Shown here: positions 42,371 through 64,000 of the stretch, one piece after another | How the letters are laid out: each line of letters begins with the position of its first letter | Position numbering within the stretch: position 1 is the first letter of the stretch | DNA from: Beijerinckiaceae bacterium | GTDB taxonomy: Bacteria; Pseudomonadota; Alphaproteobacteria; Rhizobiales; Beijerinckiaceae | Direction of reading: 5' to 3' | NCBI GenBank assembly: GCA_947452455.1 | Contig: CANGBX010000009.1 | Coordinates: 62,001 to 126,000, forward strand | Length of the DNA stretch: 64,000 bases | The notes under the pieces: generated by a model | Databases searched by the model: none | What the model was told of the DNA's origin: nothing | What the model saw: the letters and a program-made list of their open reading frames with translations, nothing else | Translations under genes and position numbers: made by a program

Positions 42371-44083
42371 ATGACAACGAAACTCTCCCGCGCTGCTTAT
42401 GCAGATATGTTCGGGCCCACCACCGGCGACAAAGTGCGCTTGGCCGATACAGCGCTCATGATCGAGATCGAGAAAGACTTCACCATCTATGGTGAAGAGG
42501 TGAAATTTGGTGGCGGCAAAGTCATTCGTGATGGCATGGGCCAGTCGCAAGTGTCGCGCGCCGATGGCGCTGTCGACACGGTTATAACCAATGCGGTCGT
42601 GATCGACCATTGGGGCATTGTGAAATGCGATGTGGGCCTGCGTGACGGGCGCATCTTCAAACTCGGCAAGGCGGGCAATCCCGAAATCCAGCCGGGTGTT
42701 GATATAATTATCGGGCCCGGCACGGAAGTGATTGCGGGTGAAGGCAAGATCCTCACCGCGGGCGGCTTTGACACACATATCCATTTCATCTGCCCGCAGC
42801 AGATTGAAGAGGCGCTGATGTCGGGCGTCACATCTATGCTGGGTGGCGGCACGGGGCCAGCCACAGGAACCTTTGCGACCACCTGCACGCCAGGCCCTTG
42901 GCATATTGCGCGCATGATCGAAGCTTCAGATTCCTTTCCGATGAATCTGGGCTTTGCCGCCAAGGGCAATGCGGCGACACCCAAAGGCTTGATCGAACAG
43001 ATTGAAGCTGGCGCCTGCGCCATGAAGCTGCATGAAGATTGGGGCACCACTCCAGCAGCGATTGATAATTGCCTGTCGGTGGCCGATGACACAGACGTGC
43101 AGGTGATGATCCACACCGACACGCTGAATGAATCAGGCTTTGTCGAAGACACAATCAAGGCGTTCAAAGGCCGCACCATTCATGCCTTCCACACCGAAGG
43201 GGCAGGCGGTGGCCATGCGCCCGACATTATGCGTGTAGCAGAACTTGAAAATGTGCTGCCCTCCTCCACCAATCCGACGCGGCCTTTCACCAAAAATACG
43301 CTCGATGAACATCTCGATATGTTGATGGTCTGCCATCATCTTGATTCATCGATTCCTGAAGATCTGGCTTTTGCCGAGAGCCGCATCCGCAAAGAGACCA
43401 TCGCAGCCGAAGACATTCTACATGATCTGGGTGCGCTCTCGATGATGTCATCAGATTCGCAGGCCATGGGGCGTGTGGGCGAAGTCATCATCCGCACGTG
43501 GCAGACGGCCGACAAGATGAAGCGCCAGCGCGGGCCGCTGCCCGAAGACAAGGGCGACAATGACAATGCCCGCGTCAAACGCTACATCGCGAAATATACG
43601 ATCAACCCCGCGATTGCCCATGGCGTGTCGCGCCATATTGGCTCGATCGAAGCAGGCAAGCTTGCTGATCTTGTTTTGTGGACGCCGGCTTTCTTTGGTG
43701 TGAAGCCTGATCTGATCATCAAGGGCGGCATGATTGCAGCCGCCCCCATGGGCGATCCGAATGCGTCGATCCCGACACCACAGCCCGTGCATTATCGCCC
43801 GATGTTTGGCTCATATGGCGCAGCCGTTTCACGCACATCCATGACCTTCGTGTCGCAAATGTCGCTCGACAAGGGCATTGCCACACATTTGCGCGTCAGC
43901 AAGCAGATGGTTGCTGTGCAGGATACGCGCAAACAAATCTCGAAGAAGAGCATGATCCACAATGGCGCCACGCCCAAGCTGAGGATCGATCCCGAGACTT
44001 ATGCGGTGACGGCTGATGGCGTGCTGCTGACTTGCGAACCCGCCTCGGTCCTGCCGATGGCGCAACGCTATTTCATGTTCTGA
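42371..44083 (+). CDS. ureC: Urease alpha subunit
   Basis: UreC holds the dinickel site that hydrolyses urea to ammonia and carbamate. All catalytic residues are present at Klebsiella numbering plus two: H136 and H138 (DTHIHF), carbamylated K219 (MKLHEDW) and H221, H248, H274, flap C321-H322 (VCHHLD) and D362. It is 570 residues. It starts 15 bases after the fused small-subunit gene. Confidence 0.98.
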
Positions 44084-47180: not shown

Positions 47181-48218
47181 TTACTTGCCTTCTTCCGGAT
47201 AGGCCTTGCGGACCTTTTCCAAAAGTTCCGGCGTGATATTGGCGACATCCATCACCAGCTTCTGCACGTCTTCGCCCTTCATCGGGCCCATGCTCATGCC
47301 CAATTTGTCGAGATCGCCGGTGAAGGCTTTGTCGATCATGGTGGCATCGAATGCACGGCGCAAAGTACTCACGCGATCATCGGCCGTCTTGGGCGTGGTG
47401 AAGAAAGACGTGCCGAGTTCACTTGCCGACATAATGGCGGTGAGGATCTGCTTCTTCTCTTGCGTATCGGCTGTTTCAATCGCGGTCGGGACATCCGGCA
47501 ATTCCGGCAGGCGCTTCAGACCGAACTGCGAGAGCACCTGGATGCTGCCATCCTTGAACCACGAAGGCTTGGCGGAGCGAACCGCTTCATAAGCTGTCGA
47601 ATGGCCTTCCACTTCGCCGCGCTCAACCGCAAGCATGGCTTCATTCGAACCCTTGTAGCCCATGACCAGCTTGAACTTGGTGCCCAAAACATTGTTGAGC
47701 ACGAGCGGATAGATGGACACGGTGGACCCAGCCCCCGTGCCACCCAGCGTGGTCTCCAGCTTCATGGCATCTTCAATGGTCTTCACTGGCGAGGTCTTCC
47801 AAGTGAAGACCATATTCACCAGCGGGCCAACGCGACCAATCCAGTTCAATTCAGCTGTCTTGAAGCGCACGCCATTCGAGCCAAGCTTTTCATCGAGCGG
47901 CAGCGTGGGAGCCCCAAGGCCAACCACTGTGCCGTCTTTTGGCGAGCTATTGAAGATCTGATTGACGGCCAGGAATGAACCCGCGCCCGGCATGTTGCGC
48001 ACAACCACCGTCGGATTGCCGGGAATATGCTTGCCCATGTGCTGGGCGATCATGCGCGAATAAGTGTCGTTGCTGCCACCTGTCGCATAGCCGATCACAA
48101 ATTCGACCGTCTTGCCTTTGTAGAATTCGGCCGGGGTTTGCGCCTGCGCCGCACTGGCCAGCAGGATTGCGCCCATCGTGCCCATGAAAATCGGCTGTGT
48201 CATTTGCATCTTGCGCAT
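47181..48218 (-). CDS. Bug/TctC-family periplasmic binding protein (orphan)
   Basis: This is a tripartite tricarboxylate transporter-type solute receptor of 345 residues. The signal peptide covers about residues 1-26 (ending ASAAQAQ). The mature protein has GKTVEFVIGYATGGSNDTYSRMI and VVVRNMPGAGSFLAVNQIF, typical of the family. ATG 48218 follows GGGAGG. No TctA or TctB membrane genes are adjacent, as for many Bug proteins, so the ligand and transport partner are unknown. Confidence 0.88.
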   Translation of the reverse strand: MRKMQMTQPIFMGTMGAILLASAAQAQTPAEFYKGKTVEFVIGYATGGSNDTYSRMIAQHMGKHIPGNPTVVVRNMPGAGSFLAVNQIFNSSPKDGTVVGLGAPTLPLDEKLGSNGVRFKTAELNWIGRVGPLVNMVFTWKTSPVKTIEDAMKLETTLGGTGAGSTVSIYPLVLNNVLGTKFKLVMGYKGSNEAMLAVERGEVEGHSTAYEAVRSAKPSWFKDGSIQVLSQFGLKRLPELPDVPTAIETADTQEKKQILTAIMSASELGTSFFTTPKTADDRVSTLRRAFDATMIDKAFTGDLDKLGMSMGPMKGEDVQKLVMDVANITPELLEKVRKAYPEEGK

Positions 48219-48375
48219 TATGTCCTCCCACGGCGGCGCCGGGCTTTGCCGACCAAATATCGCTTGATCACGGGATAATCTATCCGAGGCAGGGAATCCA
48301 CCCCACGAACAATGGCTTGTAAATGTTCACAAGTACGAGAGAGCTGCTGCCTTGCGCTTCGCGCGCGCGGGGGCC

Positions 48376-59825: not shown

Positions 59826-59862
59826 AAACCCTCAGCTTCGCTACCGATGCTGAGGGTTTTTT
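59826..59862 (+). terminator. Rho-independent terminator after the Mo-hydroxylase gene
   Basis: AAACCCTCAGC pairs with GCTGAGGGTTTTTT across a 12-base loop, followed by GTTTTTC. It ends the operon that starts at the amidase gene. Confidence 0.85.
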
Positions 59863-59906
59863 GTTTTTCACTTTTCGATTCTCACTTTCTTAAGGTCATT
59901 TTCATC

Positions 59907-60968
59907 ATGGCGAAAATGCAGAAGTCATTCTCTCACAGCGATCTTTCAGAAGAATCACAGGATTGGGTCGCACAGTTCAGACATCATCTAAAAGGCCCAG
60001 CTCAGGTCGAATGTTTCAGTTCAAGAAACACTTCTGTCGGGCGTTATCGCACCATGCGCATGCGTCGCTTTGGTCGCTCACGAAAATCTGCAGATATCCC
60101 CACCCTCATCATCCCGCCCTTGGCCGTACATGACGCAGGCTTTGTGGATCTCTTCGCCGGCAATTCACTGATTGAGACATTGCTCAACGCCGGTCACGAC
60201 GCGATTCATCTGGCTGATTGGCGCAAGCTTTCGCCAGATAGCGCTGAACAATCCATCGATGCCTGCATGTCCGATCTCGCCATTGCGATCGATGATCTGG
60301 GCGGACGGGTCAATCTTGTCGGGCTTTGCCTGGGCGGGCTTTTCGCGCTGCTGCTTGCGGCGCGTTTCCCTGCCAAAGTCGAAAAACTTGTTCTCGCAGG
60401 AACGCCTGTTGATATGGACGCACAATTGTCGCTGCTGACCTATCACGCGGGCAAGCTTCAAACTTTGCCGCGCAATTTGGTTGCTGCAGAAGATTGGCTT
60501 GCGCCACTGGCGATCAATAAAACAACAGAACTCTCCGGCTTGGAGGCGATGCAGCGAGACCTCGGCTCATTCTCCCGCAAAGATCTGGATGCCCTTGCGG
60601 CATTTGGTGCATGGGCACAGCGCAAGGGTGATCTTTCGGCACCCTATTTGCGTGATCTCTTGATGCGCATCATCAAGGGCAATGAAATCGCCAAAGGCGA
60701 GTTCAAGGTTCTGGGGCGGACAATTGATCTGAAAGACATCCGCGCCTCGCTCTTTGTGCTGGCTGGCACGCGCGATGAAATTGCACCACGTCGGCAAGCG
60801 TTGCGCGTGCTGGACCTTGTCGGAACACCCAAGGCCCGCAAACGCTCACTGGCAGTGGAGGCCGGGCACTTGGCTTTGTTTATGGGTCGCAAAACCTTGT
60901 CACGCGAGTGGCGCATGATTGCAGGCTGGCTGCAATCACAAGCGCCACGCGCGCAAAAAGCGGCTTAA
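59907..60968 (+). CDS. PHA-synthase-like alpha/beta hydrolase
   Basis: This 353-residue protein looks like a polyhydroxyalkanoate synthase catalytic core. The lipase-box variant GLCLGG places Cys141 as nucleophile, as in PhaC, with probable Asp290 (GTRDEIAP) and His321 (EAGHLALFMG). TLIIPPLAVHDAGFVDLFAGNSL resembles the PhaC entry segment. It lacks the 200-residue N-terminal part of class I PhaC and matches class III length, but no PhaE partner is beside it. ATG 59907 follows TTAAGG. It could be a true synthase, a depolymerase or a relative. Confidence 0.75.
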   Translation: MAKMQKSFSHSDLSEESQDWVAQFRHHLKGPAQVECFSSRNTSVGRYRTMRMRRFGRSRKSADIPTLIIPPLAVHDAGFVDLFAGNSLIETLLNAGHDAIHLADWRKLSPDSAEQSIDACMSDLAIAIDDLGGRVNLVGLCLGGLFALLLAARFPAKVEKLVLAGTPVDMDAQLSLLTYHAGKLQTLPRNLVAAEDWLAPLAINKTTELSGLEAMQRDLGSFSRKDLDALAAFGAWAQRKGDLSAPYLRDLLMRIIKGNEIAKGEFKVLGRTIDLKDIRASLFVLAGTRDEIAPRRQALRVLDLVGTPKARKRSLAVEAGHLALFMGRKTLSREWRMIAGWLQSQAPRAQKAA

Positions 60969-61699
60969 GCCATCGCCGGAAGCGCTTCGAGCAAATGGCC
61001 GAAGCCCGAACGCTTCTCGTTCACATGCAGACGCTTCTGGAATTCCCAGACGCGTGCCGGCACAGGATGAACCACAGGCACGCCCAGATCGCGCTCGAGC
61101 ATGTCGACAATATGCAAGGTGCGCCAACCCGAGCCCAGCATATAAATGGCATCGGCGCCCTTATGCTTGATGAAGCTCTTCTTGATATGGCTGTAGACCT
61201 GCTCGCCTGAGAGCTCTTGCACTTTGTTGAAAGGCACTTCGACGCCTTCCATGCAGCGCACATCAAAGCCCGCATCTTTGAAATAGGCCCCAAACGTATC
61301 GTTGATCTCGCCCTGAAAATATGAGGCGCCAATGATGCTCTTGGCGCCGAGTGCGCGCAAAGCTGCAATATGGTTTTGGCCCGCGGTAAAGATCGGCGTT
61401 TTATATTTGGCTTCCCATTCGCCCACGAGACGGGTTTCGGCTTCGCGGCCCATAACCATGAAAGGCGGGGCGCCATTGGGATGAATGGCATCGCAATTTT
61501 GCTCGGCGCAAAGTGCGATCTGCTGCTCATAGGCGCCCATCACGGTTTTGAATTCTTCCCGCGTGCCGCGCGTGATGTTGATGAACAGCGGAATGACGCC
61601 AATGCCTTCTGGCAAAAGCCGGATGAATTCTTCCGTAGCGCCGGGGCGCAAGGTTGGATGAATAATGCCGGCAATGCCGCGCCAAGCCGAAAAGGCCAT
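60965..61699 (-). CDS. Maleate isomerase/arylmalonate decarboxylase-family protein
   Basis: This 244-residue protein has the Asp/Glu-racemase-like double domain of maleate cis-trans isomerases and arylmalonate decarboxylases (GIIHPTLRPGATEEFIRLLPEGIGV). The usual catalytic cysteine positions read HPNGAPPF in the first domain and YMLGSGWRTLH in the second, so both cysteines seem absent and the reaction is probably different. ATG 61699 follows GGGAGGAAACC. Its stop shares TTAA with the convergent gene. A small RNA gene lies just upstream on the same strand. Confidence 0.75.
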   Translation of the reverse strand: MAFSAWRGIAGIIHPTLRPGATEEFIRLLPEGIGVIPLFINITRGTREEFKTVMGAYEQQIALCAEQNCDAIHPNGAPPFMVMGREAETRLVGEWEAKYKTPIFTAGQNHIAALRALGAKSIIGASYFQGEINDTFGAYFKDAGFDVRCMEGVEVPFNKVQELSGEQVYSHIKKSFIKHKGADAIYMLGSGWRTLHIVDMLERDLGVPVVHPVPARVWEFQKRLHVNEKRSGFGHLLEALPAMA

Positions 61700-61810
61700 A
61701 GGTTTCCTCCCGATGTTGCTGCACGGTTTTTTGACCCGCGCTTGGAGCGACATTCTGGCTGAAGGGCGGCGGCTTTGGAAGGGCACCAGCATTGGGGGGT
61801 GGAGACCCCA

Positions 61811-61890
61811 AGAAAAAGCCCGCCCCTTTTGCAAGAGGCGGGCAAGTCTGGGAGGAAACGCCTAAAGAGGCGGGCTTGCACCGGAGAGCT
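61811..61890 (-). ncRNA. Probable alphaproteobacterial anti-SD small RNA (alpha-r8, MmgR/suhB type)
   Basis: On the minus strand a small hairpin CGCCU-CUUU-AGGCG (61872-61859) is followed by single-stranded UUUCCUCCC and then a strong terminator: GCCCGCC and GGCGGGC arms (61840-61818) plus UUUUUC. This order matches my recollection of the alpha-r8/MmgR small RNAs, which carry UUUCCUCCCU between a 5' hairpin and a terminator. A second hairpin, TGCACCGG with CCGGTGCA (61909-61878), lies at the 5' side. The exact 5' end is not visible. Confidence 0.6.
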
Positions 61891-61911
61891 TCCAAACTAG
61901 ACCGGTGCACA

Positions 61912-62166: not shown

Positions 62167-64000
62167 ATGCCTGCATATCGTTCCCGCACCACGACCCACG
62201 GCCGCAATATGGCGGGCGCGCGCGGCCTTTGGCGCGCCACGGGCATGAAAGACGAGGATTTCGGCAAGCCGATCATCGCCATTGCCAACAGCTTCACCCA
62301 ATTCGTGCCGGGCCATGTGCACCTGAAAGACCTTGGTCAGCTGGTCGCCCGCGAAGTCGAAAAGGCCGGCGGCGTCGCCAAAGAATTCAACACGATTGCA
62401 GTCGATGACGGCATCGCCATGGGCCATGACGGCATGCTCTATTCGCTGCCATCGCGCGAAGTCATCGCGGACGCAGTCGAGTATATGGTCAACGCGCATT
62501 GCGCGGATGCCATCGTCTGCATTTCCAATTGCGACAAGATCACGCCCGGCATGTTGATGGCTGCCATGCGCCTCAACATTCCGGTGGTCTTTGTCTCTGG
62601 CGGCCCGATGGAAGCCGGCAAATATATTCATGAGGGCAAGTCGCATAAGGTCGATCTGATCGACGCCATGGTCGCGGCGGCCGATGACAAAATTTCCGAT
62701 GAGGAAGTCAATGCCATCGAGCGCTCGGCTTGCCCGACGTGTGGCTCATGCTCGGGCATGTTCACCGCCAATTCGATGAATTGCCTGACCGAAGCTTTGG
62801 GCCTCTCGCTGCCCGGCAACGGCACGACACTCGCCACACACGCCGACCGCAAGCGCCTCTTTGTAGAAGCGGGCCATTTGATTGTTGATCTGGCGCGCCG
62901 CTATTATGAGCAGAATGATGAATCCGTTCTGCCGCGCAATGTTGCGAATTTCAAAGCTTTCGAAAATGCGATGACGCTCGACATTTCCATGGGCGGCTCG
63001 ACCAATACGGTCTTGCACATTCTTGCTGCCGCTTATGAAGGCGGCATCAACTTCACCATGGACGATATTGACCGCCTCTCGCGCCACGTGCCTGTTTTGT
63101 GCAAAGTCGCGCCCGCCATTGCCGATGTTCATGTTGAAGATGTGCATCGCGCGGGCGGCATTATGTCCATTCTCGGCCAGCTTGAGCGTGCGGGCCTGCT
63201 GCACACGGACACACCGACCGTGCATGCGCCGACCATGGGCGAGGCTTTGGCGCGCTGGGATATTTCGCGCACCAAAAGCGAAACCGTGCGCGAATTTTTC
63301 CGCGCGGCTCCCGGTGGCGTGCCGACACAAGTTGCTTTCTCGCAATCACGCCGCTGGGATGATCTCGATGAAAATCGCCAGACAGGCGTCATCCGTGATG
63401 CTGACCATGCTTTCTTGAAAGATGGCGGTCTGGCCGTTCTCTCCGGCAATATTGCGCTCGATGGCTGCATTGTGAAAACAGCAGGCGTCGATGAGAGCAT
63501 CCATGTCTTCTCAGGCCCCGCACGTGTCTTTGAAAGCCAAGACGACACGGTGGATGCGATTCTGCGCGGCAAGATCAAAGCGGGCGATGTTGTCGTCATC
63601 CGCTATGAAGGCCCGCGCGGCGGTCCTGGCATGCAGGAAATGCTCTATCCGACGAGCTATCTGAAATCGAAGGGCCTCGGCAAAGCTTGCGCGCTGATCA
63701 CCGATGGTCGTTTCTCGGGCGGCACATCGGGCCTGTCCATCGGCCATTGTTCGCCGGAAGCGGCAGAAGGTGGCGCGATTGGCCTCGTGGAAGAAGGCGA
63801 TACAATCGAAATCAATATCCCCAAGCGCATCCTTCGTGTGGCGATCAGCGATGAAGAACTCGCCAAGCGTCGCGCCGCGATGGAAGCCAAAGGCAAGGAT
63901 GCCTGGAAGCCGGCCAAGCCGCGCCAGCGCAAAGTGACAACGGCTTTGCGCGCTTATGCGATGCTCACAACAAGCGCGGCCAAAGGCGCGGTTCGCCAGA
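62167..64000 (+). CDS. ilvD: Dihydroxy-acid dehydratase (3' end cut by window)
   Basis: IlvD dehydrates dihydroxy acids in isoleucine and valine synthesis, using an Fe-S cluster. The frame is open for 611 codons to the window end, and the usual length is about 613-616, so only the last few residues are missing. Landmarks are [52 protein letters not shown] (cluster cysteines), and the C-terminal [20 protein letters not shown] 62167 follows a weak ribosome site. Confidence 0.97.

Follow-up and report, generated by a model that had tools for sequence, protein, structure and literature searches.

This paper concerns one short element in one window (the whole 64,000-nucleotide stretch of Beijerinckiaceae DNA that was analysed): on the minus strand, between ilvD and an Amdase-family gene, the DNA very probably encodes a small regulatory RNA (sRNA) of the known MmgR/suhB family, able to bind the ribosome-start signals of mRNAs. 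What would such an RNA be doing there, and to which messages would it bind? A preliminary description of the locus had placed it between ilvD and a maleate-isomerase-like gene, and the family matches to both neighbours bear that placement out. The features on which the argument draws are these:

61803..61878, minus strand: the part of the sRNA covered by the Rfam model RF00519 (suhB/MmgR, alpha-r8), scoring 47.8 bits (gathering score 41) over model positions 1-77 of 77
61877..61909, minus strand: 5' stem-loop (SL1; UGCACCGG ... CCGGUGCA), the probable 5' end of the transcript, from the fold and an 8-bp inverted repeat
61859..61872, minus strand: hairpin (SL2; CGCCU-CUUU-AGGCG), 5 bp, directly 5' of the core, from the fold
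61850..61858, minus strand: anti-Shine-Dalgarno core UUUCCUCCC (the seed), predicted unpaired (paired probability 0.00-0.08)
61813..61843, minus strand: Rho-independent terminator, an 11-bp stem (61843-61818) and a U5 tail, from a terminator scan and the fold
61702..61711, minus strand: Shine-Dalgarno (SD) sequence GGGAGGAAAC of the Amdase gene, by sequence match the exact 10-nt complement of the RNA's GUUUCCUCCC
60965..61699, minus strand: Amdase-family gene (arylmalonate decarboxylase/maleate-isomerase-like), a predicted target; PF17645 at 68.9 bits, cut-off 25.9
48216..48229, minus strand: GGGAGGACATAATG, an SD complementary to the seed plus the start of a TctC gene, a predicted target (TctC match 47214-48056, minus strand)
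62167..64000, plus strand: ilvD (dihydroxy-acid dehydratase), the divergent neighbour, reaching the window end; NF009103 at 1174.6 bits, cut-off 710
59847..60968, plus strand: alpha/beta hydrolase, a distant PhaC relative (family models, weak PDB matches), a neighbour not tied to the RNA

The RNA had been called MmgR/suhB-like, and an Rfam scan agrees: the RF00519 covariance model passes its gathering score (E-value 9.9e-07 when the 64-kb window is searched, 1.1e-08 for one genome), and among 14 control genomes it rises above the cut-off in one, Caulobacter. Other Rfam models were rejected, RF02501 and RF02278 (at an overlapping site) and RF02499 (upstream) all scoring far under their cut-offs. 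The strand and the layout proposed earlier (a hairpin, an accessible anti-SD sequence and a U-tailed terminator) are both recovered by the fold and the terminator scan. The arms of SL1 pair over 8 bp (61909-61902 with 61884-61877), the terminator stem is GC-rich (8 GC pairs of 11) and runs into UUUUU, and against dinucleotide shuffles the fold reaches z-scores of -3.7 over 76 nt and -3.9 over 123 nt. The claim that the RNA contains no reading frame stands insofar as no supported gene overlaps it, although mechanically called open reading frames (ORFs) do, three on the minus strand (113, 127 and 289 aa) and one on the plus strand (95 aa). By itself, the RNA is an ordinary, well-supported annotation: its family match and structure are computed, and its transcription, its length and its targets are what we infer for this new member of a known sRNA family.

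It has siblings. The genome (3.05 Mb in 13 contigs, 95.6% complete) holds five diverged family members at five loci (E <= 1e-4), with scores of 67.2, 66.4, 47.8 (the window copy), 43.3 and 40.6 bits; four are above the cut-off, and the 40.6-bit copy is just under it. They adjoin a HisN/inositol-monophosphatase gene, an nnrD-like gene, ilvD, a sulfite-reductase-like/EAL pair and a TctC/DoxX pair. Family searches supplied the names ilvD and Amdase; the other neighbours were named by reading their sequences. The usual copy of the family is linked to a gene for N-formylglutamate amidohydrolase, and the window copy has ilvD on one side and an Amdase gene on the other. Across the 41 genomes searched (this one included), the family appears at E <= 1e-4 in 33 and above the cut-off in 31.

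Structure was compared in 79 copies, made up of 78 of the 80 listed places (the tandem neighbours G017:C583:2767 and G011:C575:172 being left out) and the copy in the relative L039, and sibling groups were assigned by neighbouring genes within 4 kb. TTTCCTCCC is found in 68 of the 79; a stem of at least 4 bp stands 5' of the core in 74 (shuffles averaged 43.2, with a maximum of 55/79), and a terminator stem of at least 6 bp with a T-rich tail is present, again, in 74. The stem 5' of the core is built from group-specific base pairs (e.g., GCCC/GGGC, CGCCT/AGGCG and TGCGCC/GGCGCG), which would fit selection on pairing; the MAFFT alignment (A1; 61 copies, after 11 near-identical ones and 7 under 38 bits were dropped) misplaces the 5' hairpin columns and gave no pair counts. 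Among HisN-linked copies, an equivalent of SL1 with a stem of at least 6 bp occurs in 31 of 36, as against 10.7% of shuffles. This HisN-linked stem-loop (e.g., in L082, L089 and L094) lies mostly outside the Rfam model, and its base pairs vary between genomes. The HisN locus also carries, in some genomes, tandem alpha-r8 pairs about 210-300 nt apart (G005:C1, G001:C80, G007:C71, G024:C4 and G022:C1). For the ilvD-linked copy, L039 is the closest syntenic relative, and there the RNA is kept better than its surroundings: identity to the window is 69/76 in the Rfam-covered part and 29/33 in SL1, against 133/189 in the upstream flank and 66/103 in the downstream one.

Which messages might carry the complement of this core? 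One lies next door. The genome has six occurrences of the 10-mer GTTTCCTCCC. Four are in the siblings (the window copy included), one is the complement of the Amdase SD, and the sixth, at C8:11565, was rejected as a target because it runs antisense within a TctC-like reading frame. Apart from the siblings and that antisense site, the 3.05 Mb contain a single exact 10-nt complement of the seed, namely the Amdase SD, some 140 nt downstream of the core. The presence of GGGAGGAAAC just before it favours the ATG at 61699 as the Amdase start, the position from which the protein search began, and a longer protein is possible. We regard this match as a lead and not as proof, because it was noticed post hoc and because GGGAGGA SDs also precede Amdase genes in relatives whose 420 upstream nt lack UUUCCUCCC (L038 and L040, for example). 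Duplex energies decide nothing, because the Amdase start gives -23.0 kcal/mol and shuffles of the same stretch reach -24.6; ilvD was rejected as a target, its start having no complementary SD and a duplex of -12.0 kcal/mol. The Amdase gene itself seems to move, because in L038 a protein 99% identical to the product of 60965-61699 is found behind different upstream DNA, with no sRNA core within 420 nt.

The other candidates are many. There are 81 matches to TctC solute receptors in this 3-Mb genome (some of them under the curated cut-off), together with 7 Amdase matches, and GGGAGG serves as the SD of 36 of the 81, against 5 of 188 other ORFs (7/258 in a larger background from the same genome). 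In loci of relatives, chosen for their nearness to Amdase or to the RNA, the corresponding figures are 12/36 and 18/394. AAGGAG stands at 3/81 against 4/188. Start codons were picked by their best match to a generic 16S tail rather than this genome's own; the background ORFs are mechanical (194, less 6 that were TctC- or Amdase-like), and TctC is compared with them and not with other receptor families. The pattern GGGAGGA-N3-10-ATG occurs 106 times in the genome and, reversed, 3 times; for AAGGAGG-N3-10-ATG, the counts are 29 and 8. One hundred of the 106 GGGAGGA sites were listed and 98 used (2 were second readings of the same site), and among these, 22 stand before TctC matches and 3 before Amdase matches. 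GGGAGGAAA is present at 11 of the 98. The 10 besides the window's own were fetched and gave two places without a long frame and eight open frames: an Amdase, a TctA, a TctC match, an aldo/keto reductase, an NMT1-type receptor, a below-cut-off TctC-like protein and two receptor-like proteins that match no family above its cut-off. The sharing of the SD is not a matter of recent duplication, because the DNA around these SDs is not alike: upstream of the TctC GGGAGG SDs (35 of the 36 starts were used), mean pairwise identity is 0.280, against 0.274 when shuffled, and 2 of 595 pairs exceed 0.6.

In betaproteobacterial plasmid TctC genes with annotated starts, GGGAGG is the SD of 0 of 14 (15 annotated coding sequences, less 1 that was fragmentary; an unannotated 50-kb control stretch, L292, gave none). 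This set replaced an earlier one of seven genes, found with a purpose-built hidden Markov model, in which GGGAGG was likewise at 0/7. The plasmid starts (L285, L289-L291, L293 and L294) carry AGGAGA in 7 of the 14, which could be another lineage-specific SD and itself a possible sRNA target. In the openly licensed literature, we found no link of the MmgR/alpha-r8 family to TctC, and a search there on tripartite tricarboxylate systems with sRNA and Hfq returned papers that, by title, all concern Bordetella pertussis.

We think it likely that the window RNA is a trans-acting, probably Hfq-assisted alpha-r8 sRNA of about 100 nt that represses through its anti-SD core, with TctC and Amdase genes as likely targets. 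The transcript would open with the 5' stem-loop, continue through the small hairpin and the exposed UUUCCUCCC and close with the terminator. Its core would pair with GGGAGGA-type SDs, and most likely, ribosome binding would be blocked and translation repressed. The ilvD copy would have its own (putative) promoter, free of the PhaR motif seen at most HisN-linked and at all nnrD-linked siblings examined, and its most likely targets would be carbon-uptake functions: the TctC solute receptors, and enzymes of the Amdase family such as the one encoded immediately downstream. The sibling set and the enrichment of complementary SDs are computed results, and an Hfq gene is present in the genome; binding by Hfq, repression and the identity of the targets are inferred. 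On the evidence of sequence, organic-acid uptake genes are indicated and not storage-polymer granules.

One can imagine something grander, which we put forward tentatively, as a possibility more than an expectation: the alpha-r8 siblings may together be a master posttranscriptional brake on the expanded TctC set (81) and on Amdase, in a lineage that tuned its SDs to the core, with the sibling promoters (PhaR-controlled or not) timing the shutdown and the ilvD copy acting first on its own downstream gene. If such SD tuning is true, a family with a largely unmapped regulon would gain a rule for recognising its targets from sequence, by their GGGAGGA starts, the RNA would be linked to organic-acid uptake, and the siblings tied to polyhydroxybutyrate (PHB), with their PhaR motif, would be separable from the others. 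The family is widespread in Alphaproteobacteria, and the functional data in the literature found concern MmgR and SisA-D only.

Two known systems help to place the proposal. AbcR1 and AbcR2 of rhizobia (alpha-r15) repress transporter mRNAs. These sRNAs bind Hfq and are partly homologous to SuhB/RF00519 (PMC7143759), and the window RNA differs from them in that its best Rfam match is RF00519. Caulobacter crescentus, like our bacterium, has several alpha-r8 siblings per genome with a common core, SisA-SisD, for which broad mRNA repression and no conserved motif upstream of the siblings are reported; SisA represses mRNAs through its core, the sponge CrfA antagonises the SisA-D siblings, and of 10 SisA reporter fusions with the same core, 8 were repressed and 2 moderately affected (PMC12559287). 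The loci and the target classes differ: a published target of SisA is a TonB-dependent receptor mRNA, whereas TctC is predicted here, and neither “TctC” nor “tricarboxylate” occurs in the main text of PMC12559287.

Several observations weigh against the repressor we propose. Its core reads UUUCCUCCCA, whereas the 10-mer printed in PMC12559287, UUUCCUCCCU, ends in U; the tenth base is A in the window, L039 and G014, and the alignment shows C or A at this place in other model matches from related genomes too, so the mismatch is not decisive. The enrichment is broader than one motif, any GGAGG being found at 53/81 TctC starts against 18/188 and AGGAGG at 8/81 against 3/188, and strong SDs may perhaps just mark highly expressed receptor genes. 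For most GGGAGG-type TctC SDs, moreover, the match to the core is just 6-7 nt long. At 47.8 bits, the window copy is well under the best siblings (66-67 bits), and a simple scan recognised no sigma-70-like promoter upstream of it. Finally, of 20 distinct ilvD loci that extend 500 nt or more upstream, a motif search places the core no further than 600 nt from ilvD in 3 (our own, L039 and G014; in G002 it is 592 nt away by another count and slightly beyond the 600-nt limit in this one), and it is absent upstream of ilvD in G019 and L040 despite IlvD proteins 93% and 91% identical. Because it is so patchy, the ilvD-linked copy was either recently gained or often lost.

Might it then be a paralogue in decay, the duplicate of an alpha-r8 gene sitting at a nonconserved locus and by now either untranscribed or yielding only an inert transcript? 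The patchiness, the score and the lack of a recognised promoter all suit that idea, as do one terminator pair and one SL1 pair that are broken in L039, but we consider it unlikely: the core, SL2 and the terminator are intact, the 8-bp SL1 is present in the window copy, and, compared with L039, the RNA has changed less than its flanks.

A second alternative, that the RNA is the functional counterpart of S. meliloti MmgR, which would limit PHB granules by lowering phasins as part of a PhaR/PHB circuit, seems to us quite improbable for this copy, even if the kinship is real. MmgR is 77 nt long, Hfq-dependent and predicted to form three stem-loops (PMC7143759); it limits PHB and phasins (PMC7143759, PMC8401924), and loss of its core raises PhaP1/2 and PHB (PMC8401924). 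According to PMC12559287, direct base-pairing by MmgR has not been identified. The window RNA shares with it a full-length RF00519 match, the anti-SD core and a terminator, and PhaR, PhaC and phasin genes are all present in the genome. It was the placement near a polyhydroxyalkanoate (PHA)-synthase-like gene that had first hinted at PHB control, and on this point, the preliminary description is not supported: a PhaC-like gene does lie 0.84 kb away, but it is a distant relative under the curated cut-offs for a PHA synthase (84 bits against class III PhaC, cut-off 365; 52 bits against class I, cut-off 623), on the opposite strand to the RNA and with the Amdase gene between them. A PhaC_N protein is encoded at another locus of the genome (C8:38211, 254.8 bits).

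The promoters speak to the same point. The PhaR motif was determined in S. meliloti, where PhaR binds the mmgR promoter in gel shifts (PMC12542648), and MmgR has a PhaR site in its promoter, whereas our genome has five copies, of which the ilvD-linked one is without a PhaR core in the 80 nt upstream. By that 80-nt test (core YGCRNYGCR; chance rate 384 of 5000 random 80-mers), the core is found at 25/36 HisN-linked and 5/5 nnrD-linked copies and at 9/25 other copies, and it is found at 0/4 ilvD-linked, 0/5 sulfite-reductase-linked and 0/4 TctC/DoxX-linked ones. A CTTG-type -35 and a -10-like hexamer stand upstream of 16 of the 36 HisN-linked copies, often with a TGC dyad between them that matches the YGCRNYGCR core of the S. 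meliloti PhaR motif. A counterpart of MmgR, if there is any, is more likely to be a HisN- or nnrD-linked copy, because the PhaR core is upstream there and not at the ilvD copies; a PHB circuit exists in this genome, and by the 80-nt test the ilvD copy lies outside its transcriptional arm. None of the three phasin starts examined (their start codons being uncertain) has a GGGAGG SD. Duplexes at these starts come out at -11.7 to -16.9 kcal/mol, weaker than the -23.0 at the Amdase start, but given the shuffles mentioned above, this settles nothing. Doubled PhaR-like motifs do lie about 90-125 nt upstream of two of the three phasin genes (loci L129 and L130), and the third gene has none. Doubled PhaR motifs are reported for the S. 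meliloti phaP promoters (PMC12542648).

Least probable of all, we judge, is a cis-acting Amdase leader, in which the hairpins and terminator work as an attenuator while the anti-SD pairs with the SD of Amdase on the same transcript, for although the RNA lies directly upstream of Amdase on the same strand and the exact 10-nt match is the sole such site described above, the ilvD-linked copy of G002 has no Amdase in the following 3.9 kb (the contig of G014 ends 80 nt past the RNA), four siblings stand at other loci of the same genome, the Amdase starts of relatives such as L038 and L040 keep GGGAGGA without the RNA core in the 420 nt upstream, and L039, which carries the RNA, reads GGGAGGAATC at its Amdase start.

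Elsewhere in the window, 42527-42812 on the minus strand matches RF02514 (5' ureB sRNA) at 66 bits, against a cut-off of 40. The match may reflect coding conservation, because the opposite strand is an open frame that, by eye, resembles urease alpha.
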